DNA of 48,184 nucleotides, taken from the IMG/VR virus record IMGVR_UViG_3300037042_002106, positions 1 to 48,184 of that record; one strand, given 5' to 3'. Numbering within the stretch: position 1 is the first letter of the stretch; each line of letters opens with the position of its first letter. Positions 8,701 through 45,360 of the stretch are shown here, one piece after another. Under the pieces are notes generated by a model, which saw only the letters and a program-made list of their open reading frames with translations, was not told the DNA's origin and did not search any database. Source of the stretch: a virus. A program made the translations under genes and the position numbers.

Positions 8701-10845
8701 AACAGGGTCAATAAATCCCGCTGTTTTAGACTCTTTAGCAAGAACTGTAGCATAAGCACAATTCAATACAGGACCTGATGTGTCAGCCTTAACAATAAGT
8801 CTATCTCCAACTTCTATCTTTTTTGTATTCTCCCCTTCAAGGAAAAACCAAACTTCGTTAGTATCGGGGTCAGTAAAAAACAAATTGGTGTATATCACCT
8901 CATAGTTTTCTGCATCAGGCTTAATAACAAACTTATATCTTGTAGCCCAATAAGGAGCAATTTGTGTAGGCGGTATTGTTACCTGAATACTATTTTTATT
9001 TGCTGAATATCCACAAGGGATATGCTCAGTATTGTTCGGGCTAACTAATGCTGTAGAAGAACGATTAAATTCATCCATATAAACAATACCAATCTCGTAT
9101 CCTCTATTGCTATGAAGACTTTGAGGATTAGCTATTTCCTGAAATGTAGCATCCGCAAAATCAACTGAGTAATACTCATAAACATTTTGAGTAGGAGTTA
9201 CCAAGTTATTTACAAATCTCATAGCTATAAACTGAAATCCTATCTGCGTACTTGCAGGGGAAGTAATAATAGCAATTGGCTGATTATTTGTGCTAATTCC
9301 GCTACTGAATTTTGTTAAAGAATCTAAGTTATTAGGAATCACACAGTTTACGGAATCGGTAAATGTTGTTCCATCGCAAGATGTCTCAACTCCCGGTATG
9401 GGAGAATAGACAGGCTTTATGTTTAATGCAGTACCAACAGCATCCTGAAACTCAGGGCTTGTTGCCATCTGATAAACAGAGGTATAGTTATTAGAAAGAA
9501 AGAAAGAAAAGTCAATTGCTATATTATCAGTTGTCTCAGCAGGATAAGGCAGGTCCCCCGAAAAGCCCTGATGAGTAAATTGAATTTGTATATTAAGAGC
9601 CGCCCCCGAAACTAAACTTACACCCGCTAAATCTACATATAAAATAGAATCAGGGATAGCTTGGGGTCCATTAATGGAATAATTCCCTACGCCTCCACTA
9701 TCAGGTATATCTGTAGAACCAATTGGTTCTGTAATAAGAGTTGTATTATACTCGAGTTTTAATGGACTCCCATTCTTGTCAATCAAATCATATCCTTCAA
9801 CATAATCTCCATACATAAGCCTATTGCCCATAATTGTTTGAGCCTTAGCAAAACGAGGGACGTTATCATACAGCCTAAGTATTTCGTACTCAGGGAGAAT
9901 GGTAAATATCTTGCTGTTTGAGAAAGTATAAGTATAATCAGTATTATCAGCAAGACCTAAATTAGACTTGTCAAGTTTTTCAATTACCTTGATTATATTA
10001 TTCCCTGATTGCTTAAACAATAAGTCTACGCCAACTACAAGTGGACCACCTGTGTTGTATGTTACGTTTGCTGTGTTACAAAAATTAGTCATCCCCTCGT
10101 TTAGCATACTATTAATGCTAAAGCTAAAAGGATTCGGGACGAATGATACTTGAGACCATTGAGATGTAGCAGAATACTCTCCGTCTACATAACGGTATCT
10201 ATACGCAAACGAAATAAATCGAGTGTCCATATAGTTTTCTTGCCCACTTGTAACAATAGGTTGAACTGTCGGAGATTCTGTAGGTGGTTTTTTTATAACC
10301 AATAACTTCTCTGCTGAGAATTGGTCAATATACGATAAAGGGATAGGGTAAGTAGCCTCCGTATTTATAAATCGAGGCGGGTTATAATCATCTGTAAAAA
10401 ACAATAGGTTCTCTATTATATTTACTCCTGTTATTACATATTTGTCATTAAAATTTAATGTTGTATTTACTCCTCCTCCGTCATCCGTGCTAATTACGTG
10501 ATACGTAAGTATGTTCGAGAATACGTTATATGATACAATCATATCACACTTACCTGTCGTACTTAGTATAAAATTGGGGTCGTGAACAAACCAATATATT
10601 AATTCATTTGCACTATCGTCAATAGCACCGATACATCTTGCGTCAGTGCTTAAAGCAGTCCCAAGAAAAGCCAATGAAGTGAGAGAAAGATTGCCTTTAG
10701 TATTTTCTATAGCACCAATCTCAGAGTTCTCGGTACTACCCATTCTAATGTTCATAGCGTCAATATATTCGCCTTCAGGAAGTAGACGCTCGTCCACAAC
10801 CTTATTCATTCTACCCGCTATAAAGTTTCTTGCGATTTTTGCCAT
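5725..10845 (-). CDS. Large tail hub / stabilisation protein with Cys-rich C-terminus
   Basis: At 1706 aa this is the largest gene in the window. The N-terminus (GRMNKVVDERLLPEGEYIDA followed by MNIRMGSTENSEIGAIENTKG) is the conserved beginning of the beta-propeller-like tail stabilisation/tail hub proteins of podovirus-like phages (compare P22 gp10 and T7 gp12 roles). Roughly residues 1-1200 are repeated beta strands with aromatic and Gly residues. The last 400-500 residues change character, with many Cys pairs (DICCNCEPCTGDC, CDCNTCTETC, NYCGACPP, DGCGCPS) and Ig-like beta-sandwich composition; I infer that this part carries adhesion modules. It is the first gene after the tail-tube-like gene (1-nt gap). 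Late expression from the minus-strand operon. Confidence 0.7.
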   Translation of the reverse strand: MAKIARNFIAGRMNKVVDERLLPEGEYIDAMNIRMGSTENSEIGAIENTKGNLSLTSLAFLGTALSTDARCIGAIDDSANELIYWFVHDPNFILSTTGKCDMIVSYNVFSNILTYHVISTDDGGGVNTTLNFNDKYVITGVNIIENLLFFTDDYNPPRFINTEATYPIPLSYIDQFSAEKLLVIKKPPTESPTVQPIVTSGQENYMDTRFISFAYRYRYVDGEYSATSQWSQVSFVPNPFSFSINSMLNEGMTNFCNTANVTYNTGGPLVVGVDLLFKQSGNNIIKVIEKLDKSNLGLADNTDYTYTFSNSKIFTILPEYEILRLYDNVPRFAKAQTIMGNRLMYGDYVEGYDLIDKNGSPLKLEYNTTLITEPIGSTDIPDSGGVGNYSINGPQAIPDSILYVDLAGVSLVSGAALNIQIQFTHQGFSGDLPYPAETTDNIAIDFSFFLSNNYTSVYQMATSPEFQDAVGTALNIKPVYSPIPGVETSCDGTTFTDSVNCVIPNNLDSLTKFSSGISTNNQPIAIITSPASTQIGFQFIAMRFVNNLVTPTQNVYEYYSVDFADATFQEIANPQSLHSNRGYEIGIVYMDEFNRSSTALVSPNNTEHIPCGYSANKNSIQVTIPPTQIAPYWATRYKFVIKPDAENYEVIYTNLFFTDPDTNEVWFFLEGENTKKIEVGDRLIVKADTSGPVLNCAYATVLAKESKTAGFIDPVEEVTVPAGVYMKINPNSFSAVVDPNATIAPGSIEACAAKGGNYAPPDYTPLQYPMNIPDPLNPGMYIDYSIPAGSRIKFYFDWNRAGVGNPCEPRGYTLDKNYVASADYDNMEDWFNGDNIGVTVNSGVSKDGSTNVQYIPTNGVLTSYDFETMYLQFYRNPTTNQLILQASTGKSCTGVGYPNSRKYCVRADIEVFRAIDTIIFETEPTDALPDVWYENNLSFSIDSDGNHSGNVQDQDIATNTPGIIDTGFFNCFSFGNGAESYKIRDSLIGRHFNLGERVTTVSAQDYKEADRFADITYSGVYNAESNVNKLNEFNLGLLNYKNLEASFGGIYILDGRETDVLVLQEDKISYVLSGKNLLSDSTGGGAVTSVPEVLGTQIARTEKYGISFNPESYVQWGFNRFFTDVKRGAVIQLVGDSYTNEQLKVISEANMRTWFRDEFNASFNTQKLGGYDPYMDEYVLSTNSRRIPVVEQCLPCGVSQTFNLNQTSVPLQEVSYQYCVDLGPLVGATAVHWLVNGNSGGNFQINATYNGVTTSTGWTSAGTGEIGFIKNLISETIVTIEIIYTSAYLNIDLMVDCPIPEELKIVEVVVTNNAEAGQSIHTEFRYTNGAYIGPLQSAGVTFISSTPAPVVSRYNIISGYVGSGSFPPAFSTMRLQTNKIPPDTFVFNPLNDKFKYLRTNILYPNTNTGINALLAAASTATPITSSGSIFGANFIVPDTSFGDTLYLIWDFRDALPIQLCYAENTEVGDPQKDICCNCEPCTGDCVTVKITNPLDKGIDAEVLFPNGQGIVCGGEPGPFSVQLGPLETVEICVANDFEGEGAWQVISGIATVEIIDCDCNTCTETCSQWYYINQDNTDALITHTICDSCEDTKIDEAPANQVTSIQACIGDVPTVVLGNPDFLVLTNYCGACPPTEGLCIQFEVYEVTGPTAVSWFDCNGNYNAVELGGGPQDNLICCVLYPNIPNIFVPENAKLRILGDGCGCPS

Positions 10846-13625: not shown

Positions 13626-13655
13626 TAAAAAGAGGAGTGTCTTTGAAGACACTCC
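13626..13655 (-). terminator. Terminator of the major capsid gene built from the 16-bp palindrome
   Basis: The dispersed palindrome (13,637-13,652, read GTGTCTTCAAAGACAC on the transcript strand) is lengthened here to a 10-bp stem by flanking GGA/TCC and followed by TCTTTTT on the minus strand. It lies 20 nt after the capsid stop codon, as an intrinsic terminator would. A T-run on the opposite side (plus-strand TTTTTTT at 13,660) makes it potentially bidirectional. Confidence 0.75.
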
Positions 13656-16261: not shown

Positions 16262-18697
16262 TTAACGAGGCTCAAACTCGGCTAAATCAAAGCCATCTAA
16301 GCTATCTTCGTTAGATTCAAAATCCAACGGAGGCAGGTTATTTTTACGTTGTTGAATCAGTTTTGATTGTTGGCTATTTTGAAGGCTAATTCTTTGAGCC
16401 TTAGCAGCTTCTTTTTGCTGTTCCCTGTCTCCTGTTGTAGCGTTATTAATCTCAGCCAATTGCATATTGTACTGAAACTCACGGTCCATCAATGCTATTT
16501 TCAACTCTGCTTGCTTCTGCATTTTCATAATCTCAAACTGAGTCTCAGCCTCTTTTAATTGCATTTTACCTTGCATTTCCCCTTGCATTTTTTGCATAGC
16601 TGTTTGCCCCGCTAATTCTTGAGATTTCATTTGCTGCTCCGCAACCATTGCTTGCTTTTGCATTGCCATCTTTTCCTCACGCTCTTGTTTTTTGATGCGT
16701 TTTAATTTGAGGAGTTGATTTGCAAGTTTGAGATTTTTTACATCACGAATATCAATAGCGTCCTCAAGATTTATATCTCCTTTAGAAAGAGCCATTTGTA
16801 TATTGGCTTCAAGTTGAGCCTTTTGTTCTTCATCAGGTGCAACCTCGATAAAGATTCCAAAATCATAAATATACAAGTCACTTATTTCAGAAAGAAGATT
16901 AACATTGTATTTGCCTATCTGATTAATAAATTCATCTTTAAACTCAGCATACTCTAAAATATCAGAAACCCTATACGTTAAAGCCTCTGCCAATGCTCTA
17001 TACATAAACAATCCACTCTCAAGAATGTGACGAGTAGCTGTATTAGAATTTAACGCAGCTAATTTCTGAAGCCCAACCAAAGAATTAGGGTCAGGAGTAG
17101 AGCCGTCACGAGCCTCATTAAGACCGGTGACAGAGCGAATCATATCCAAATAGTGGTTATAATTGGCAAGAAGCATTTGAGTCTTACTTGCCCCTGAGTT
17201 AGATGTAAGCTGAGTAATAGGGACTTTCGCATTATTAAAGTCTCCATCTCCGGTAAAACTACGCCCAATAACGCTACCCGTTTGGAAATATAATCTAAGA
17301 GCATCTTCAGGACTATATGCGTTGCCGGTTCCTAAGTCAATTTCGCTTAACCCATCCGCATCTATGAATACTCCATCAGGAACAACACGGTTGATAACCT
17401 GTTGAAGTTTAAGATGGGTTATTTGAATAAGGTCAGCAAATGGTATCATCCTACGAACCAAAGATTCAATAACCCCTTTATACATACGAGGAGCACAAGC
17501 CACATAGTTAGAAAGTGCGTGTTGAGTAGCAGACTTAGGTCTTACCATATTCTCTGACAATCTCCACTGCAAAAGGATATTGGTTCCCATAACCAAAATA
17601 CCTTCATACCATACGTCAATAGTCTTCTCTACCTTCTCAAATCCTGCCTCTTCCATCATCTCAACGGGAGGATTAAACTTATCATCCTTCTCAATCATTC
17701 TAATACCGCCATTTTCAAGATTCTTCTTTTTGTAAACAATCTTCTTAGTGGTTTTATAATTGAAATACATCAAAGTGCAAGTATCTCTAAAGAACATATC
17801 GTTCTGATAAAACTGAGCCACATTAAAATAGTCGTACCAAGAATTACTGTATTGAGAAATCTCTTGAAGGTCTTCTTTTGTTAGAGTAGGGTCAATCTTC
17901 ATTAACTCAGTTAATGGTACAGTTTTAACCTCACCCCAATAAAAACAATCTCTAAAATAAGGGTCTTCTGTATAGCTGTAAACAATGTTTGCGGGGTCAA
18001 CATAAGATATTTTAACTCCTGCCCCGGGAAGAAACTCGTGCTTTGCTACAGCTATTCCAATTACGGTAGCATCATAGTCAAGCCTGCGTCTAATTTCATC
18101 GTACTTGTTGTTATCAAAAATTGTGTTGATTGCTTCTTCTTCGGCTATTTCAATAGCAGGCTTATATTTAAGCTGCATATGAAGTTTTAGTTCCTCGTCA
18201 TTTGTAGGCAATTCATCAGGGTTCATAACAAAAGGATTTGCCCCTGTTTGCTGCTGAATAATTGTCAATACATCTTTTGCAGCAGCTTGACCTTCTAATT
18301 GTTCTTGGTATTGGTTTCTATGAGACTGAGACATAGCGTCTTGTGCATATGCCTTAACTTTAAATAATCGCTCTGACATACCATTTACAACGATGTCAAC
18401 AAACTTTGGTAAGATTGGGACCGGGGTCCAATCAAGATTTAGATAAGAAATATCCCCGTCAATCGCTAATTCATTCTTGTACTTTGAGATAGGCTGCTCC
18501 CCTCTTGCGTAAAGTCTTAAACGATGAAACTCACGCCAACGACCATAGTATCTACTGTTGTTACCATCTTTTCTAAACCATTCATATTGGATAGCTTGAC
18601 CAATTTGTAAGCCGTAAGCCATTGATGCTTTCTCTTCGTCAGAACACATCTGAGAAGGAAAGACTGTAGATGTTATGTCTATTAATATATTTTTCAT
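16262..18697 (-). CDS. Portal protein
   Basis: An 811-aa protein starting at ATG 18,697, whose ATGA overlaps the terminase stop. It has the usual order of a portal gene (directly after the large terminase) and the usual make-up: a long alpha/beta body (residues 60-600) and a helical, Gln/Met/Lys-rich C-terminal region (LKLKRIKKQEREEKMAMQKQ and following) that fits the barrel or crown seen in long portals. It would form the dodecameric DNA entry channel at one capsid vertex and dock the terminase. The length is at the high end of the family and agrees with podovirus-like Bacteroidota phages. Confidence 0.75.
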   Translation of the reverse strand: MKNILIDITSTVFPSQMCSDEEKASMAYGLQIGQAIQYEWFRKDGNNSRYYGRWREFHRLRLYARGEQPISKYKNELAIDGDISYLNLDWTPVPILPKFVDIVVNGMSERLFKVKAYAQDAMSQSHRNQYQEQLEGQAAAKDVLTIIQQQTGANPFVMNPDELPTNDEELKLHMQLKYKPAIEIAEEEAINTIFDNNKYDEIRRRLDYDATVIGIAVAKHEFLPGAGVKISYVDPANIVYSYTEDPYFRDCFYWGEVKTVPLTELMKIDPTLTKEDLQEISQYSNSWYDYFNVAQFYQNDMFFRDTCTLMYFNYKTTKKIVYKKKNLENGGIRMIEKDDKFNPPVEMMEEAGFEKVEKTIDVWYEGILVMGTNILLQWRLSENMVRPKSATQHALSNYVACAPRMYKGVIESLVRRMIPFADLIQITHLKLQQVINRVVPDGVFIDADGLSEIDLGTGNAYSPEDALRLYFQTGSVIGRSFTGDGDFNNAKVPITQLTSNSGASKTQMLLANYNHYLDMIRSVTGLNEARDGSTPDPNSLVGLQKLAALNSNTATRHILESGLFMYRALAEALTYRVSDILEYAEFKDEFINQIGKYNVNLLSEISDLYIYDFGIFIEVAPDEEQKAQLEANIQMALSKGDINLEDAIDIRDVKNLKLANQLLKLKRIKKQEREEKMAMQKQAMVAEQQMKSQELAGQTAMQKMQGEMQGKMQLKEAETQFEIMKMQKQAELKIALMDREFQYNMQLAEINNATTGDREQQKEAAKAQRISLQNSQQSKLIQQRKNNLPPLDFESNEDSLDGFDLAEFEPR

Positions 18698-20943
18698 CGT
18701 ATTAATTGGCTTAATGTTCCGTCATTTTTATACCTTGCGAAGTTAATACTAATTTTCGATTCTTTTTTTTCAGGGACGTAGAGGTGTTTTTGGTTTGCCA
18801 TTATTGCTAATCCCGAACTAATAGAGGCATCAAATTTTGTTCTGTCATTGATGTCAAACTTCGCCCAATCTTCTAATGTTCTTGTAAATGGCATTGTCCC
18901 CATCATCTCGGGGTCTCTATATTTACCCTCTAAATCTAAGCCGATATGTTTTTCAATATAAGATTCGATTGCAGCAGCGTGAGCCTGACGGACATCTTCT
19001 GAAGAGTTTGGTATACCACCAAGTTCACGTTCTGTTTTTGATAACTTAGAAATATGCTTATCAGGTCTGTTCATACAGAACCCACGATAGCCTCTATTCT
19101 TAAAATGATAAAGCAATCTCGGTTTGTTATTCTCAATAAGAATAGGCATCCCAAAAAATATACACGCCATAAGTACCTCTTCAAAAAATATCTCAGCAGT
19201 CTGAGGGCGTGCTATATATTCTAAAAAAAACTCGTTTACAGGAGCCTCATCCATATGGTATTTAGTAAGCCCGTGCAGGGAACCATTTGACCCCCTGCCA
19301 TCAACTACCGCAGAAATATCATAAGAGTCACAGCCAAACGACCCAATATGCTCATTCCCCGGATACTTTATGCCTAATCGGGTATGAACATTGTTTTGTA
19401 AATGCTTAGGGGGGAACCAACTCACAAAGAACCTCCCGTTTTTATCAGGAGACCAAATAACCTCAGAATCTTTTATCCCATCTCTCCACTGAAATGTTCC
19501 ACGTGAAACATAGTGCTCCTTAATCATAGTGTCGTTGTAGTCAATCTGATGGTATATTTTGGTAAGGTTAAACAAAGCCTGCTTGCTCTCATCCCTAAAA
19601 GCGTGAGACTCGGTCCTTGGGAACTGACGATAGAACTCGTTCAAGGCATCTGAGTCATTTTTCAAAGAATCTACCTCAGCCTCCCAATAATCAATAGCCC
19701 CGTTTGTTATCCAACCACCATCAACCCCTCCAACACGCTCCTGAGGTTTTCTAAATACAGGCATCCCATACCGGTCAATAAAGCCTTCCATATTCCACTC
19801 CATCGGGATAAACAAAGCATATAGCCCACTTTTAGTCTGACCATTTGCGTTCCGTACAGATAATCTCGAATCCTCGTATACATCTTTAAAGTTCTGACCC
19901 CCTTTGCTTAGGGCATTTGAGGTAGACCCCATCATACACTTCCCAATAATCTTGCTACCAAGACGAAGACAGGTTTTAGTTACACGCCAATTCTCCTTGA
20001 TATTGTTTGGCTTAACCCACTTACCGCTCTCATCGTGAGCCAAGAATAGAAGTTTTTCTCCATCATAAGAGTTGTCCTCGGTATTCTTCCAATCTATTGT
20101 GGTATCCAATCCATCAATCTCATTGTCATTTACCTCATACATATTCTTCTTGGTAATCTTGGAAGCCGGCAACCTGAACGCCAACTCGGACTTTGGCTTA
20201 TCCATACCATCCATAACCGGTTTGAAAAAGAAAGGAAGTCTACTGTTTATCGGGACAACCTTGTCCGTAAACATCTTCTTAGCATCCGAACCGGTCTTAG
20301 ATAGGATTCCAACACGAGAATCTCTCGCAAGGGTAGCTATGTTGACGCACTCGGAAGATGCCATAAAAGAGAATCCCGAACGGCGAATCTTAAGATAAAT
20401 CATCCCAAATGCCCTTGGGTCAGCTTTACAAGCCTCCCAAAATATCCAATAAATCCGGTTAGCTTCTCTGAAGTCAGGATACCCAACGTCAATACTCGCC
20501 CATTGCAAATACATCCAATGAGACCCGGTTATATAGATTGGCTTTCCGTTATTCATAAACCAAAATCCCTGCTCACGACAGTCGAACTGATGCTCAATAT
20601 AATCTATCCATTGGTTCTTAAACTGAGATGCCATCTCATTCCAATGGAAGATTGATTGGATTTTGGCTAACTCCTTAGGGAGTTCTTCTCTTTCCCAATA
20701 TTGTTCTTTTGGATTCGAGTGTCTTTGAAGACACTTTTTAGGAGCAAGAGGCAACGCTATGGCTAACCCCGAAATACTTATAACTTCACCTATCTGACCG
20801 GTCTTTGAAATAATGACCATATTGTACTTTTCATCGTACCCATATTCCCACGACATAGCCTTATTCTTGGAAGCAAGAACATTAGCCGGCACGTAGTCAT
20901 AAAGTACCCTATACAATTCATTATTTAGAACGTCTTTCTGCAA
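18694..20943 (-). CDS. terL: Terminase large subunit
   Basis: A 749-aa packaging motor. The ATPase domain shows a divergent P-loop (KIRRSGFSFMASSECV, near residue 186) and a Walker B-like acidic strand (KLLFLAHDESGKW, near residue 302). The C-terminal nuclease domain contains the Asp-bearing strand HIGSFGCDSYDISAVVDGRG and later acidic residues (FFEEVLM). It would translocate DNA into the procapsid and cut it. The reading frame begins with TTG at 20,943 (overlapping the upstream gene by 23 nt); the first in-frame ATG is 28 codons later, so the start is uncertain. The gene also contains an exact copy of the 16-bp palindrome and a parS-like site. Confidence 0.85.
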   Translation of the reverse strand: MQKDVLNNELYRVLYDYVPANVLASKNKAMSWEYGYDEKYNMVIISKTGQIGEVISISGLAIALPLAPKKCLQRHSNPKEQYWEREELPKELAKIQSIFHWNEMASQFKNQWIDYIEHQFDCREQGFWFMNNGKPIYITGSHWMYLQWASIDVGYPDFREANRIYWIFWEACKADPRAFGMIYLKIRRSGFSFMASSECVNIATLARDSRVGILSKTGSDAKKMFTDKVVPINSRLPFFFKPVMDGMDKPKSELAFRLPASKITKKNMYEVNDNEIDGLDTTIDWKNTEDNSYDGEKLLFLAHDESGKWVKPNNIKENWRVTKTCLRLGSKIIGKCMMGSTSNALSKGGQNFKDVYEDSRLSVRNANGQTKSGLYALFIPMEWNMEGFIDRYGMPVFRKPQERVGGVDGGWITNGAIDYWEAEVDSLKNDSDALNEFYRQFPRTESHAFRDESKQALFNLTKIYHQIDYNDTMIKEHYVSRGTFQWRDGIKDSEVIWSPDKNGRFFVSWFPPKHLQNNVHTRLGIKYPGNEHIGSFGCDSYDISAVVDGRGSNGSLHGLTKYHMDEAPVNEFFLEYIARPQTAEIFFEEVLMACIFFGMPILIENNKPRLLYHFKNRGYRGFCMNRPDKHISKLSKTERELGGIPNSSEDVRQAHAAAIESYIEKHIGLDLEGKYRDPEMMGTMPFTRTLEDWAKFDINDRTKFDASISSGLAIMANQKHLYVPEKKESKISINFARYKNDGTLSQLIR
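19495..19510. promoter_or_regulatory. parS-like site inside the terminase gene
   Basis: The sequence TGTTCCACGTGAAACA fits the widely conserved ParB-binding site consensus TGTTNCACGTGAAACA at every fixed position. It overlaps the codons for VSRGT in the terminase gene, so chance plus codon constraint is possible. No parA or parB gene is in the window, so a protein acting here would have to come from the host or from outside the window. Confidence 0.4.
20719..20734 (-). repeat. 16-bp palindrome (exact), inside terL
   Basis: GTGTCTTCAAAGACAC on the transcript strand, encoding part of KKCLQRHS near the terminase N-terminus. Exact copy of the dispersed repeat. Confidence 0.9.
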
Positions 20944-32438: not shown

Positions 32439-34055
32439 TTATTTGGTTTCGTAGCTTCTCGCCATTGTGATGATTGCATTTGTTGAAAGAATCGTTGTTG
32501 CAACACTGACTGCGTTTTGCAATGCACTGCGTGTCACCTTCAGCGGGTCAATAACACCCATTTGAATCAGGTTCCCTTTCTCCCCGGTCTTCAGGTTATA
32601 ACCATACCCTTCTTCCTCGTGACCGTTGTAGATATTGGTAACGCACAGTCCGGCGTTCTCAAGTATCTGCGTCAGCGGAGCGGAAAGAGCCGCATCGACA
32701 ATTTTCATAGCTGCCAACTGCTCCTCGCTTGTCGCCTCAGTGACAATGTCAGATACAAGAATCTCAGCCAATGCTTTGCCGGCTCCGGGCAAAATGCCCT
32801 CCTCAAGTGCGGAACGCACCGCACACACCGCATCATCAACACGGTCATACAGTTCTTTCTGCTCAAGGTCAGTCTGACCACCAACGAATATCACCCCGAT
32901 ACCGCCGGTCAGTGCAGCAATACGCTCCAAGATAAAGTCCTTGTCACCTTTCCGCTTAGCCTGAGCGTGAGCCTCCCAAAGTTGAGCGACCCTCTCCTCA
33001 ATAGCACCTTGGTCAGCTTTCAATGCCGACTTGATGATAACAGTCTTATCCTTACTGACAATGACTTTTGCGGCGTGACCAAGATGGGCATAGTTAATAT
33101 GGCTCAGGTCATCACCGGTCTTCTCGCTGAAATATGTCGCCCCAACACTGATGGCGATGTCTTGCATAATCTCGTGCTGCTTATGCCCAAAGTTTGGCGG
33201 AGGCACAATGCAAACCTTCAGGTTCCCTTTCACCACGTTAGCCGCCAACGTATTTATCACATTTGCGTTGCACGGTGAGATAATCAATAGCTTCTTCCCC
33301 TCGCTGATGATTGGCTTCAGCACGTTCTCCAACTGTAGCACATTTGCTATCTCCATATCTGCTACCAAGACCATAGTGTCCTCAAAGACACACTCGTCCT
33401 TCTTCGCATCGTTGATAAACATCGGGCTCATATACCCACGGTCAAACTTTAACCCCTTGGTCGTCTCGGCATATGTCTCAGCCGTCTGACTCTTCTCAAC
33501 GGTAACGATACCGGTCTTGCCCACGTCCTTGTAAACCTCGGCAATGATTCGACCAATCTCACGGTCATTGTTAGCCGACAAACTCGCCACATCAACCAAC
33601 ATACTGCTCGTCACCTTCTTGGCTTTCCTACGCAGCTTGTCCACCACCTTGGTGCTTATGTCCACCATATGTCTCAACACCTCAGTCCGGTTGTGGGTCT
33701 CCTTGATATGCTCAAGCCCGCCCAATACCAAAGACTCAGTCAGCACAATCGCCGTGGTCGTCCCATCGCCGGCACTTGTTGCCGTCCGGTCTGCTGCTTC
33801 CTTCATCATCTTGACCGCAAGGTTCTCAACCGGGTCAAGCAAGTCAACAGCCTTCGCAACCGTGACCCCATCCTTTGTTACTGTAATACCGTGAGTGTGG
33901 TGTGGTGACTCAATCAGGACAGTATTGCCCCCGGGTCCCAACGTACTCTTGACAGCCCTCGCCATCTTTAGTACACCATCAATTAGTTTCTTCCTGCCCG
34001 TATGACCAAACTGTAGGTCCTTAGGCAAATAACTCGTGTCTGTTTTAAAGTCCAT
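32439..34055 (-). CDS. groEL: GroEL-type chaperonin
   Basis: A 538-aa chaperonin subunit. Residues 15-100 include the nucleotide-binding GNTVLIESPHHTHGITVTKD, the segment DGVTVAKAVDLLDPVENLAV, and AGDGTTTAIVL (the catalytic GDGTTT loop). The apical and intermediate domains follow at the usual distances (GTVTVEK-like GIVTVEKSQTAETYAETTKG), and a late GGTGVIFVGGQ-type loop is present (GGIGVIFVGGQTDLEQKELY). The Gly/Met-rich C-terminal tail of host GroEL is missing. It contains a one-mismatch copy of the 16-bp palindrome. A -7 element lies 35 nt upstream. Confidence 0.9.
   Translation of the reverse strand: MDFKTDTSYLPKDLQFGHTGRKKLIDGVLKMARAVKSTLGPGGNTVLIESPHHTHGITVTKDGVTVAKAVDLLDPVENLAVKMMKEAADRTATSAGDGTTTAIVLTESLVLGGLEHIKETHNRTEVLRHMVDISTKVVDKLRRKAKKVTSSMLVDVASLSANNDREIGRIIAEVYKDVGKTGIVTVEKSQTAETYAETTKGLKFDRGYMSPMFINDAKKDECVFEDTMVLVADMEIANVLQLENVLKPIISEGKKLLIISPCNANVINTLAANVVKGNLKVCIVPPPNFGHKQHEIMQDIAISVGATYFSEKTGDDLSHINYAHLGHAAKVIVSKDKTVIIKSALKADQGAIEERVAQLWEAHAQAKRKGDKDFILERIAALTGGIGVIFVGGQTDLEQKELYDRVDDAVCAVRSALEEGILPGAGKALAEILVSDIVTEATSEEQLAAMKIVDAALSAPLTQILENAGLCVTNIYNGHEEEGYGYNLKTGEKGNLIQMGVIDPLKVTRSALQNAVSVATTILSTNAIITMARSYETK
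33376..33391 (-). repeat. 16-bp palindrome (one mismatch), inside groEL
   Basis: Plus strand GTGTCCTCAAAGACAC; differs from the consensus by one base, and its CA loop lies on the non-transcript strand, unlike most copies. Confidence 0.6.
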
Positions 34056-34721: not shown

Positions 34722-35013
34722 AGTTTTTTCTTGACACGAGATACCCGTAGTGTTTGGGTTATACCCCACCGCACGTCAGCGGACCCCCGCCGGAAAACGG
34801 AAAAAAAAGAGAAGGGGGGGGTGCAAAAATGGACAGCCCCTGCCGATATTTTCGGCTTTTCCCCTGCCTGCCTGCACCTGCACAGGCAGGCACAGGCACA
34901 GCCCCTGCTCCTGCTCCGCTCCGCTCCCTGCTCCGCTCCCTGCCCCTGCTCCCTGTCACCTGCTCCGCTCCCTGCTCCCTGCTTCCTGTGTGAACAGGAA
35001 ACAGGACAGCCCC

Positions 35014-35097
35014 TGTGTACCTGTATCACCTGTGTACCTGTGTCACCTGTTCACCTGTGTACCTGTGTCACCTGTTCACCTGTGTACCTGTGTCACG
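35014..35097. repeat. Tandem repeat, 25-bp period
   Basis: Two full copies (35,031-35,055 and 35,056-35,080) of a 25-bp unit that starts TGTGTACCTGTGTCACC, with partial copies on both sides (35,014-35,030 and 35,081-35,097). Direct repeats with no coding role, in the centre of the noncoding region; iteron-like. Confidence 0.85.
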
Positions 35098-35152
35098 TTA
35101 TGAACAGCCCCTGAACACAGCCTGAACAGGACAGAAACAGCCCCTGCTCCCT

Positions 35153-35168
35153 GTGTCTTCAAAGACAC
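35153..35168 (+). repeat. 16-bp palindrome (exact), before the first early gene
   Basis: GTGTCTTCAAAGACAC, exact, in the noncoding leader of the early arm. Confidence 0.9.
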
Positions 35169-36057: not shown

Positions 36058-36073
36058 GTGTCTTCAAAGACAC
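36058..36073 (+). repeat. 16-bp palindrome (exact), between the 211-aa gene and amidoligase
   Basis: GTGTCTTCAAAGACAC, exact, 10 nt after the upstream stop codon. Confidence 0.9.
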
Positions 36074-36111: not shown

Positions 36112-37017
36112 ATGAATCAGACAGGTATCGTTTACAGCATCACAGGTAATTCAAGCAGGGGTCAAGTGGCACACTACCACGGCAAGCCGTCACCCCTCAA
36201 GTTGAACAAGACAGCCCACAAAGTGGACGTTGCAGGGCTCAAGCCTGTAGAACAGCGGACAGCTGTAGTTTTTGACGGCTCAGAGTTCGAGTCAAAATTT
36301 ACTATCGGCTTCGAGGTCGAGAAAAACCAATTGTCACGTGGAGCGGTTCGTGAATACGAGTTGTTCTGTGGCTTCGAGAGAGACGGAAGCTGTGGCTACG
36401 AGGCGGTGACACACATTTTGCCCCTGCTTCCTGCGGGCAAGTGGAGAACGAAAGTTTTCGATATGATGCACAAGGCTGAGCGTATTATTGATGACAGGTT
36501 CAGCCCCTCAGACAGACGCTGTGGCGGACACATTACAATCGGTGCTCAGGGCTTGACAGGTGACGAGTTGAGAGCGGCGGTAAGAGTGAACGCAGGCATA
36601 ATCCTGAGCCTGTTCAGGAAGCGTATTCAGAACACCTACTGCTCCCACAATCAGCGTCTTCAAGAGGAAGGGCTTGGATGGAGCGAGTATGCAGGCGGTA
36701 ATCACCACAAATACTGCTTAGCCTTGGTGAAGGGCAACTGCCTTGAGTTCAGAGTGCCTTCTAAGTTCGAGAGCGTGAAGCAAATGATGAGACGTTACGA
36801 GTTGTTCTACGAGGTGGTAAACTACAGCCTGAACAATCCGAACGGAAGCCACGAGACCCTGCTCAAGAGACTACGTCCAATCGTCCTGAGTATGTACAAC
36901 GGAGACGTGGACAAGGCGAACGAGGTAATCGACCTGAGCCGTCACTTCCGCAAGTTCATCCTGACAGGCGAGGTTCACCCCTCAATCGCTCAGTACGTGA
37001 GTGCTCCCCGAAACTAA
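36112..37017 (+). CDS. Amidoligase (COOH-NH2 ligase family)
   Basis: I place the start at 36,112 (MNQTGIVYSITGNSSRGQVA), 301 aa; the earlier in-frame ATG lies inside the palindrome leader. Motifs of the phage-type amidoligase fold are present: IGFEVE near residues 65-70, RDGSCGYEAVT near 90-100, CGGHITIG near 137-144, and LEFRVPS near 211-217 (acidic and Arg residues that bind ATP, Mg and the amine). Amidoligases of the ATP-grasp/glutamine synthetase-like class join a carboxyl and an amine; Iyer and co-workers predicted links with class-II glutamine amidotransferase and GGCT proteins, both encoded by a gene 2 kb away. Likely acts on a peptide or cell-wall component. Confidence 0.8.
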   Translation: MNQTGIVYSITGNSSRGQVAHYHGKPSPLKLNKTAHKVDVAGLKPVEQRTAVVFDGSEFESKFTIGFEVEKNQLSRGAVREYELFCGFERDGSCGYEAVTHILPLLPAGKWRTKVFDMMHKAERIIDDRFSPSDRRCGGHITIGAQGLTGDELRAAVRVNAGIILSLFRKRIQNTYCSHNQRLQEEGLGWSEYAGGNHHKYCLALVKGNCLEFRVPSKFESVKQMMRRYELFYEVVNYSLNNPNGSHETLLKRLRPIVLSMYNGDVDKANEVIDLSRHFRKFILTGEVHPSIAQYVSAPRN

Positions 37018-37041: not shown

Positions 37042-37081
37042 GGTGCAGGGGCACACATCAGGGTTCGAGTCCCTGAGCACC
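37042..37081 (+). ncRNA. tRNA-like minihelix, copy 1
   Basis: After the amidoligase stop, GGTGC...GCACC (37,042-37,046 with 37,077-37,081) encloses an 11-nt bulge and a 6-bp stem TCAGGG/CCCTGA topped by TTCGAGT, which is the canonical tRNA T-loop with its closing G-C pair. The arrangement resembles the acceptor/T-arm half of a tRNA. No D-arm or anticodon arm is present. Confidence 0.6.
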
Positions 37082-37112
37082 ACTAATTTTTTAACCAATC
37101 AAATCAAATCAA

Positions 37113-37299: not shown

Positions 37300-37341
37300 C
37301 AGTGCACAGGCAGACATCAGGGTTCGAGTCCCTGAGCACTG
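37300..37341 (+). ncRNA. tRNA-like minihelix, copy 2
   Basis: CAGTGC...GCACTG (37,300-37,305 with 37,336-37,341) encloses an 11-nt bulge, then TCAGGG/CCCTGA and the TTCGAGT loop. Compared with copy 1 the outer stem has changed both sides together (G-C to A-T), keeping pairing. Total stacked length is 12 bp, the same as acceptor plus T-stem in a tRNA. Confidence 0.6.
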
Positions 37342-37360
37342 CGAATCAAAACCAATCACA

Positions 37361-38490: not shown

Positions 38491-38506
38491 GTGTCTTCAA
38501 AGACAC
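38491..38506 (+). repeat. 16-bp palindrome (exact) in an extended hairpin
   Basis: GTGTCTTCAAAGACAC, exact, flanked by GGGGC and GCCCC, which lengthens the stem. Confidence 0.9.
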
Positions 38507-38981: not shown

Positions 38982-40127
38982 ATGTGTGTAATTATTATCA
39001 AGCAACAAGGTCAGCACCTGCCAAAAGAGGTAGCAAAAAATTCAGCACGTATCAATCCCCACGGACTTGGTATCATTTGGCTCGACACGTTCGAGGTTAC
39101 TTATCACAAATCTTCTGAGTTCAAAAAGTTGGACACAGACCGACCCTTCATCGCTCACTTCCGCTACGCTACCATCGGGGCAATCGGGAAGCACAACACC
39201 CATCCGTTCAGATGCGGTAAGAATGAGAACGAGTGGCTTATGATGAACGGCACAATCAGGGGGCTCGGAGACCAAAAGAAGAGCGACTCACGTGTATTGG
39301 CTGAGGCACTCGGCGAGGTAGCCCGCCACACTTGGAAAAAAGAATTGGCTAAGTATGAGTGCCGATTCGTTACCATCAACACCCGAAACAAGACCTTTCA
39401 GATATACAACAAACAGCTGTGGACAATCAAGGACGGCGTGTGGTTCAGCAAGGACAACGTCCTCGAGGATAACCTTGTGGCTGTGTACGGCACGCTCAAG
39501 AAGGGCTACTCAAACTATTGGCACTACCTGAGCAGCAGCCTGCACCTTGGCAAGGGCAAGACCCTGAACAAGTATCCGCTCATAGTCAACGGACTACCTT
39601 ACCTGATTGACGAGGTGGACAAGGGGCACAATGTGGAGGTGGACGTGTTCGCTGTGAGCGACTCAAAGTTGCGAGACCTTGACAGACTCGAAGGTCATCC
39701 GAATTGGTATCAACGCAGACAGATACCGATTCGTGTCGGCAACAAGACCCTTAGCTGTTGGATATACTTCAACATCAAGGAGCGAGTGACTGATGATAGT
39801 GTCCTGCACAAAAAGTACACGCAAGACTACAAGCCGTGGAAAAAGTGGTGGGAGTACGAGAAGCCTGAGCCGAAGCAGGTCGCCCCGAAGCCTGAGCCTG
39901 TGCAAGCTGTACAGCGTTCGTTCTACTTCGAGGACTTGATGCTGACTGAGGACGATAAGTACCCACGTGAGAGCACCTTCGACACGAACGAGTTCGACAT
40001 TGAAAATGAGAAACCGATATGTATCGACTGCTTCCACGACTTGGAGCACGATGCGTTTGCAAATTATCACTGCTGTGGTTGTGGTGGTTGGTTCACTGAG
40101 GCTGAGGTTTTACGATTCAAACCTTAG
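38982..40127 (+). CDS. Class-II glutamine amidotransferase / GGCT / zinc-ribbon fusion
   Basis: I place the start at 38,982 (MCVIIIKQQGQHLPKEVAKN), 381 aa; removal of Met makes Cys2 the N-terminal nucleophile of an Ntn-type class-II glutamine amidotransferase. Supporting motifs are PHGLG (26-30), AHFRYATIG (58-66), HTHPF-like HNTHPF (71-76) and MNG (88-90). From about residue 165 a gamma-glutamylcyclotransferase (AIG2-like) domain follows: AVYGTLKKG (167-175) and LDRLEGHPNWYQR (near 233-245), whose Glu is the likely catalytic acid. The end has a zinc ribbon (CIDC at 347-350, CCGC at 364-367). GAT would provide ammonia or transfer glutamyl groups; GGCT would release 5-oxoproline from gamma-glutamyl bonds. 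Together with the amidoligase this makes a peptide-modification set. Confidence 0.75.
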   Translation: MCVIIIKQQGQHLPKEVAKNSARINPHGLGIIWLDTFEVTYHKSSEFKKLDTDRPFIAHFRYATIGAIGKHNTHPFRCGKNENEWLMMNGTIRGLGDQKKSDSRVLAEALGEVARHTWKKELAKYECRFVTINTRNKTFQIYNKQLWTIKDGVWFSKDNVLEDNLVAVYGTLKKGYSNYWHYLSSSLHLGKGKTLNKYPLIVNGLPYLIDEVDKGHNVEVDVFAVSDSKLRDLDRLEGHPNWYQRRQIPIRVGNKTLSCWIYFNIKERVTDDSVLHKKYTQDYKPWKKWWEYEKPEPKQVAPKPEPVQAVQRSFYFEDLMLTEDDKYPRESTFDTNEFDIENEKPICIDCFHDLEHDAFANYHCCGCGGWFTEAEVLRFKP

Positions 40128-40139
40128 TCTTTACGAGGG

Positions 40140-40155
40140 GTGTCTTCAAAGACAC
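40140..40155 (+). repeat. 16-bp palindrome (exact), just upstream of the hammerhead
   Basis: GTGTCTTCAAAGACAC, exact, 5 bp before the first paired base of the ribozyme and 12 nt after the fusion gene's stop codon. Confidence 0.9.
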
Positions 40156-40159
40156 TCCG

Positions 40160-40208
40160 CCGTATCAGGATGAGTGTCCTGACTGATGAGTCCTAAAGGA
40201 CGAAACGG
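40160..40208 (+). ncRNA. Hammerhead ribozyme, type III
   Basis: The core is complete. Stem III is CCGU/ACGG (40,160-40,163 with 40,205-40,208). Cleavage would follow the A of GUA at 40,164. Stem I is UCAGGA/UCCUGA (40,165-40,170 with 40,177-40,182) with a UGAGUG loop. CUGAUGA is at 40,183-40,189. Stem II is GUCC/GGAC (40,190-40,193 with 40,198-40,201) with a UAAA loop, and GAAA is at 40,202-40,205. All stems pair perfectly and the two conserved strands are exact. It lies in the gap between the GAT/GGCT gene and the 178-aa gene and would cut the early mRNA there. Confidence 0.85.
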
Positions 40209-40236
40209 AAACTTTAATCAAATCAAATCAAATACA

Positions 40237-45283: not shown

Positions 45284-45360
45284 GTGTCCTTAAAGACACT
45301 AAGTGTGGAGGCTTAGCCTCGGAGGTCTCTCACTTAGATTAACAGACCGAGGCAAAATTT
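45284..45360 (+). other. Structured leader with a palindrome variant
   Basis: The 92-nt gap between nuclease and SSB-like genes starts with a two-mismatch version of the palindrome (GTGTCCTTAAAGACAC, 45,284-45,299), followed by a GAGGCTTAGCCTC hairpin (45,307-45,319) and an arm GGTCT/AGACC. It resembles an mRNA leader or processing site. No gene lies in it. Confidence 0.4.

Follow-up and report, generated by a model that had tools for sequence, protein, structure and literature searches.

A hairpin-coupled type III hammerhead ribozyme after a conserved gene in an uncultured phage and its relatives

What a hammerhead ribozyme does between two genes of a phage operon, and which of those genes it belongs to, are the questions raised by positions 40160-40208 of a 48,184-base IMG/VR contig from an uncultured phage, the whole of which is referred to here as the window. 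No near DNA relatives of the window were found among GenBank phages. Its portal protein is 76% identical to that of the uncultured phage MW202828 and 46% identical to that of the cultured Flavobacterium phages known as elemo, and one large protein matches the crassvirus muzzle family. An earlier note on this DNA had described a type III hammerhead with the conserved strands and three stems, a GUA cut site, and a location between two early genes just past a copy of a dispersed palindrome, all of which was borne out; the two genes are co-directional. The features of the locus are as follows.

36112..37017, plus strand: gene with a predicted amidoligase fold (AlphaFold model), with no hammerhead after it
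38982..40127, plus strand: upstream gene, with a class-II glutamine amidotransferase-like domain, GGCT (PF06094) and a C-terminal zinc-ribbon-like segment
40137..40158, plus strand: 9-bp hairpin, GGGGUGUCU-UCAA-AGACACUCC, built on the dispersed palindrome, between stop codon and ribozyme
40160..40208, plus strand: type III hammerhead ribozyme (RF00008, 40.5 bits)
40160-40163/40205-40208, plus strand: stem III, CCGU/ACGG, open-ended
40164, plus strand: H17, the A of the GUA cut site (NUH, not NUG)
40165-40170/40177-40182, plus strand: stem I, UCAGGA/UCCUGA, 6 bp, closed by loop UGAGUG
40183-40189, plus strand: core, CUGAUGA
40190-40193/40198-40201, plus strand: stem II, GUCC/GGAC, closed by loop UAAA
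40202-40204, plus strand: GAA strand
40209..40236, plus strand: A-rich leader of 28 nt, ending AATCAAATCAAATCAAATACA ahead of the next start codon
40237..40773, plus strand: downstream gene, Kyano_Gp96-like (PF23790 in residues 1-71)

The CUGANGA ... GAAA core with a closed stem II is present at 40183-40205, and the anatomy places the predicted cut between 40164 and 40165, in agreement with the earlier note. A descriptor search for all three hammerhead types, on both strands of the whole window, returned this one match and no second hammerhead, compared with 0.025 matches per shuffled window (40 first-order Markov shuffles), none of which scored as high; the expectation of a score above random shuffles was thus upheld. 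A CTGATGA...CGAAAC sequence at 9568 was considered as a hammerhead and rejected, as its stems are absent. The Rfam search proposed in the earlier note gave a divided result. RF00008 (Hammerhead_3) aligned over the full model (1-54) with 40.5 bits and an E-value of 9.8e-8 in a 251-base scan, or ~2e-5 once scaled to the whole window, but the score falls below the gathering threshold of 48.5 bits, and a default Rfam scan consequently reports nothing here. The gathering score is a curation cut-off, not a structural criterion, and the hammerhead of one relative (L129) attains 49.2 bits with the same model. The family model R1, which was built including the window sequence, gives the element 72.6 bits.

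With respect to folding, the minimum free energy structure of the isolated 55-mer is the hammerhead (z = -2.5). In a 116-nt context, an alternative at -32.8 kcal/mol is 2.6 better than the hammerhead at -30.2 kcal/mol, with UACG upstream of the palindrome pairing with CGUA of stem III. This comparison uses nearest-neighbour energies without tertiary contacts or magnesium, and it counts against easy folding. A translation- or hairpin-controlled switch, in which UACG masks stem III, was considered and rejected: the masking is strong in the window, but relatives show it in 35 cases versus 34-39 in swapped-segment controls (n=127). In sum, the element is almost certainly a genuine hammerhead.

The upstream gene, referred to here as GATase-GGCT, matches PF06094 at 1.7e-22 and GATase_6 at 6e-5, the latter under its cut-off. 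An ATG at 40186, within the ribozyme, would give a longer downstream open reading frame; this start was judged an artefact, and the relatives align from 40237. The type of leader found at 40209-40236 recurs ahead of other genes in the window (repeat families D2 and D7). A Pfam search with the product of 36112-37017 gave no match. The best structural matches of its AlphaFold model (pLDDT 71.5) are to glutamine-synthetase/GmaS folds (E 4e-4) and to phage proteins annotated as amidoligases, and the gene is assigned an amidoligase fold with the moderate confidence of that model. Other repeats occur in this part of the window, including imperfect intergenic tandem repeats of the CCTGTGTACCTGTGTCAC type at 35012-35113 and two 45-nt copies, 87% identical, at 37043-37087 and 37302-37346. 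The latter contain a GGTTCGAGTCCC motif that resembles a tRNA T-arm, and no tRNA was called at either position.

The dispersed palindrome reported earlier is also real. It is a 16-nt sequence, GTGTCTTCAAAGACAC, and GTGTCYTNNAAGACAC-type sites occur 11 times in the window versus 0.36 expected, starting at 13637, 20719, 28992, 33376, 35153, 36058, 37283, 38491, 40140, 41555 and 45284. Orientation follows transcription at most sites. The copy at 33376 lies inside a GroEL-like chaperonin gene (32439-34055, minus strand). Copies neighbouring the hammerhead locus are as follows.

35153..35168, plus strand: palindrome copy, intergenic
36058..36073, plus strand: palindrome copy, 10 nt past a stop codon
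37283..37298, plus strand: palindrome copy, right after the stop codon of a small open reading frame
38491..38506, plus strand: palindrome copy, 18 nt past a stop codon
41555..41570, plus strand: palindrome copy, 33 nt past a stop codon, with a reversed centre (TG)
45284..45299, plus strand: palindrome copy, 3 nt past a stop codon

Only 54 of 217 intergenic copies adjoin a hammerhead, and a further 77 copies lie within genes. Since most copies lack a hammerhead, the hairpin must have another role too. A Rho-independent terminator was rejected for the palindrome, as a T run follows just 12 of the 217 intergenic copies. The centres of intergenic copies are biased to the coding strand (CA in 163, TG in 27), and the stem extends beyond the palindrome by a mean of 2.5 pairs, compared with 1.1 when flanks are swapped. 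Palindromes beside the hammerheads of some relatives differ in sequence (GTCCGTTNNAACGGAC, GTCTGTTNNAACAGAC), and in L132, L150 and L193 hairpins of quite different sequence take the place of the palindrome, for instance GGGGCGGGAAACCGCCCC in L150. Although the palindrome forms the hairpin in most cases, a very different sequence can do so as well, which argues that structure, and not one sequence, is kept.

Relatives were chosen by their neighbouring proteins, with the ribozyme ignored, and comprised 80 viral contigs with the upstream protein and four with the downstream protein. In these, 135 catalytic half-cores were found, every one of them on the coding strand. The remaining stems completed 132 of the 135 (103 type III and 29 type I), versus 0.58 with shuffled flanks. 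Once duplicates were removed, covariance-model matches came to 146 distinct type III hammerheads; each lies on the coding strand, and the core is intact in 145. The covariance model A1 consists of 62 distinct type III copies picked by a descriptor that demands pairing; its members are therefore 100% paired by selection, and the flank-shuffle is the unbiased test. Within these 62 members, both sides change at 11 of 14 pairs (all six of stem I, three of stem II and two of stem III), with 250 such cells versus 77.6 after shuffling. The loop sequences UGWGUG (loop I) and NAAA (loop II) are kept across the family. At 10.1/11.1, a U.U or A.A replaces G-C in 26 of 38 copies after GATase-GGCT genes versus 9 of 59 after amidoligase genes (e.g., L131:5549-5597, L135:6157-6206 and L178:6131-6179, among others), and these may be slower natural variants.

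Scanned with A1, 39 of the 42 long IMG/VR records of the phage group, the window included, showed one to four type III copies, and elemo showed one. Contigs of relatives carry up to four type III copies plus type I copies, co-directional and flanking genes, whereas the window has only the one. No hammerhead was found in the other three of the 41 IMG/VR relatives, in MW202828, the closest named relative, in four further phages of Bacteroidota (phi38:1, phi13:2, Gundel, Panino), or in C75C1. Outside the phage group, a search of viral contigs with one core pattern (L005-L124, at least 120 stretches) gave at least 108 type I and at least 20 type III hammerheads, and among the matches listed, 119 of 128 were co-directional with genes.

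The median distance by which type III copies follow a stop codon is 34.5 nt. Of 131 such intervals, 126 contain a hairpin whose arms are 6 bp or longer, compared with 23.8 (maximum 38) in shuffles. The 34 nt just downstream of type III copies hold a hairpin in 31 of 146 cases. Among the matches listed, a hairpin precedes 138 of 147 type III copies in the group versus 8 of 20 in unrelated phages. Spacing between the ribozyme and the next start codon varies little as well (median 23 nt). The 29 type I copies overlap the stop codon of the gene above them (median -1 nt), and most use a palindromic hairpin as stem III, which the upstream product would retain. Judging from these layouts, the upstream cleavage product of either type would terminate in a hairpin, although the topology differs.

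The genes on the two sides differ greatly in constancy. The upstream neighbours of the 146 type III copies include 59 amidoligase genes (cluster c3), 38 GATase-GGCT genes and 13 Gp96-like genes, and effective gene families number 6.2 upstream versus 46.6 downstream. A type III hammerhead follows within 100 nt of 38 of the 85 GATase-GGCT genes in relatives, and the position of the window hammerhead is common to 37 other distinct loci, after orthologous genes. Because upstream families are few and downstream families many, the ribozyme belongs with the 3' end of the GATase-GGCT gene and not with the Gp96-like gene. The stress that the earlier note put on a function ahead of genes like the Gp96-like one proved misplaced, given about 6 effective families upstream versus 47 downstream in relatives.

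The elemo phages provide a cultured point of reference. All 68 records carry two unannotated hammerheads, a single copy each of types III and I, as in the following example.

NC_062743 (L213), 19044-19098 and 16952-17009, both on the minus strand: two hammerheads, one type III and one type I

The type I copy overlaps an annotated small open reading frame, gp68, on the other strand. No conserved gene precedes the type III copy, which stands ahead of the first gene of an early gene block and lies ~170 nt past what we take, by eye, to be a Bacteroidota-like promoter.

The reading we favour, and consider probable, is that hairpin and hammerhead form a self-cleaving intercistronic module that would give the upstream messenger RNA a hairpin end and separate it from the gene below. 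Under this reading, the hairpin at 40137-40158 and the hammerhead at 40160-40208 would act as one module at the 3' end of the GATase-GGCT gene. Upon transcription of the early operon, the RNA would cut itself after A40164, and a splitting of the polycistronic early mRNA is plausible by analogy with what has been proposed for other phages. The upstream mRNA would end in the 9-bp hairpin and a short tail bearing a 2',3'-cyclic phosphate; the downstream mRNA would carry its 5'-hydroxyl immediately at stem I and continue through the unstructured A-rich leader to the start codon. Capped by the hairpin, the 3' end should slow 3' exonucleases, and the 5'-hydroxyl and stem-loop should slow 5'-dependent decay. 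With decay slowed at both ends, the ends of amidoligase and GATase-GGCT messages would be fixed, and the level of their expression would no longer be tied to the variable genes below. The arrangement suggests that in these phages messenger RNAs may be cut and capped by RNA catalysis. Points against the module are that stem III has only 4 bp and that a competing fold is 2.6 kcal/mol better, that most palindrome copies stand without a hammerhead, that many copies after GATase-GGCT genes have the possibly slow U.U or A.A at 10.1/11.1, that the elemo type III copy has no conserved upstream gene, and that three of the 41 IMG/VR relatives and MW202828 lack a hammerhead. A broader version is tentative, and we would put it at somewhat under an even chance: in a large group of Bacteroidota podoviruses, hairpin-plus-hammerhead modules of two topologies would be the standard route by which mRNA 3' ends are formed at selected conserved genes, replacing terminators or RNase processing and tuned by the 10.1/11.1 variants (G-C, U.U, A.A).

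The main rival, and the one closest to the emphasis of the earlier note, is that the ribozyme serves the downstream gene, whose translation or stability would be tuned by a 5'-hydroxyl leader with a ribozyme remnant. The tight distance to the start codon agrees with this, and the rival stays alive because of the elemo type III copy, located 5' of the first gene of the early gene block. We nevertheless regard it as unlikely, in view of the great diversity of downstream genes (46.6 versus 6.2 effective families) and the fact that type I and type III copies leave different 5' leaders, yet both leave the upstream hairpin. It is also rather improbable that the palindrome is the functional element, whether as operator, antitermination site or protein-binding hairpin, with the hammerhead a low-effect rider that trims RNA. 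Palindrome copies do outnumber hammerheads 11 to 1 in the window, and 77 copies lie inside genes; this reading is, however, at odds with the coding-strand bias of intergenic centres (CA 163, TG 27), the stem extension past the palindrome (2.5 versus 1.1 pairs with swapped flanks), the substitute hairpins beside hammerheads in L132, L150 and L193, and a hammerhead core kept in 145 of 146 copies.

Circular-RNA or retrozyme-like elements, in which paired ribozymes excise and ligate unit-length RNAs, come to mind for genomes with up to five hammerheads flanking single genes, and ligation by hammerheads is possible in principle. The window genome has one copy, however, and in relatives neighbouring copies mix types I and III, differ in stem sequence and show no repeated unit between them; circular or spliced products also went undetected for similar prophage arrays (PMC3088659), and this origin is thus very improbable. 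Hardly credible, finally, is a chance or decayed, inactive sequence. The score below the Rfam gathering level and the unfavourable energetics of stem III in context would fit such a sequence, but the full core, the covariation, the shuffle controls and the group-wide bias in strand and position would not. The self-cleaving module at the 3' end of the upstream gene therefore remains our preferred reading.

The phage group amounts to a natural comparative experiment, in which dozens of genomes have the ribozyme placed alike behind orthologous genes. Further comparative value comes from the two topologies converging on a hairpin-ended upstream product and from the core variants. A 2017 review (PMC6155905) called the role of hammerheads in prokaryotes open, and the question is directly testable here since the cultured elemo phages carry two hammerheads.

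Thousands of hammerheads, with all three types in bacteria, were reported by Perreault et al. in 2011 (PMC3088659), who described clustered hammerheads flanking genes in prophages and proposed transcript splitting; phage hammerheads cut in vitro, and an Agrobacterium tumefaciens array, when cloned, cut in E. coli. This general kind of element is accordingly already known. A literature search with thin coverage of subscription journals found no description of hammerheads in the present phage group or of hairpin coupling, and the coupling to a hairpin, like the constant placement at the 3' side of particular genes, appears to be new. In comparison with RF00008 type III hammerheads, the window copy shares all conserved core residues, the type III stem permutation, an NUH cut site and closed loops I and II. 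In contrast, it and most relatives tested score under the gathering threshold, the UGWGUG/NAAA loop pair is family-specific, and some relatives have a non-Watson-Crick 10.1/11.1. The elemo phages (Elemovirus, e.g., NC_062743) resemble the window in related virion genes, the portal among them, and in a type III hammerhead, but differ in a CUGAAGA core and in the placement of that copy ahead of the first gene of the early gene block. The prophage clusters (A. tumefaciens ardA, C. scindens and A. caulinodans; PMC3088659) are like the present relatives in that several hammerheads of mixed type flank single genes in phage operons. In the text searched, that paper mentions no preceding hairpin and no Bacteroidota or Flavobacterium case, whereas here a hairpin precedes the type III copies; and the flanked genes of the prophage clusters were described as not constant, whereas the upstream genes of the present phage group are.
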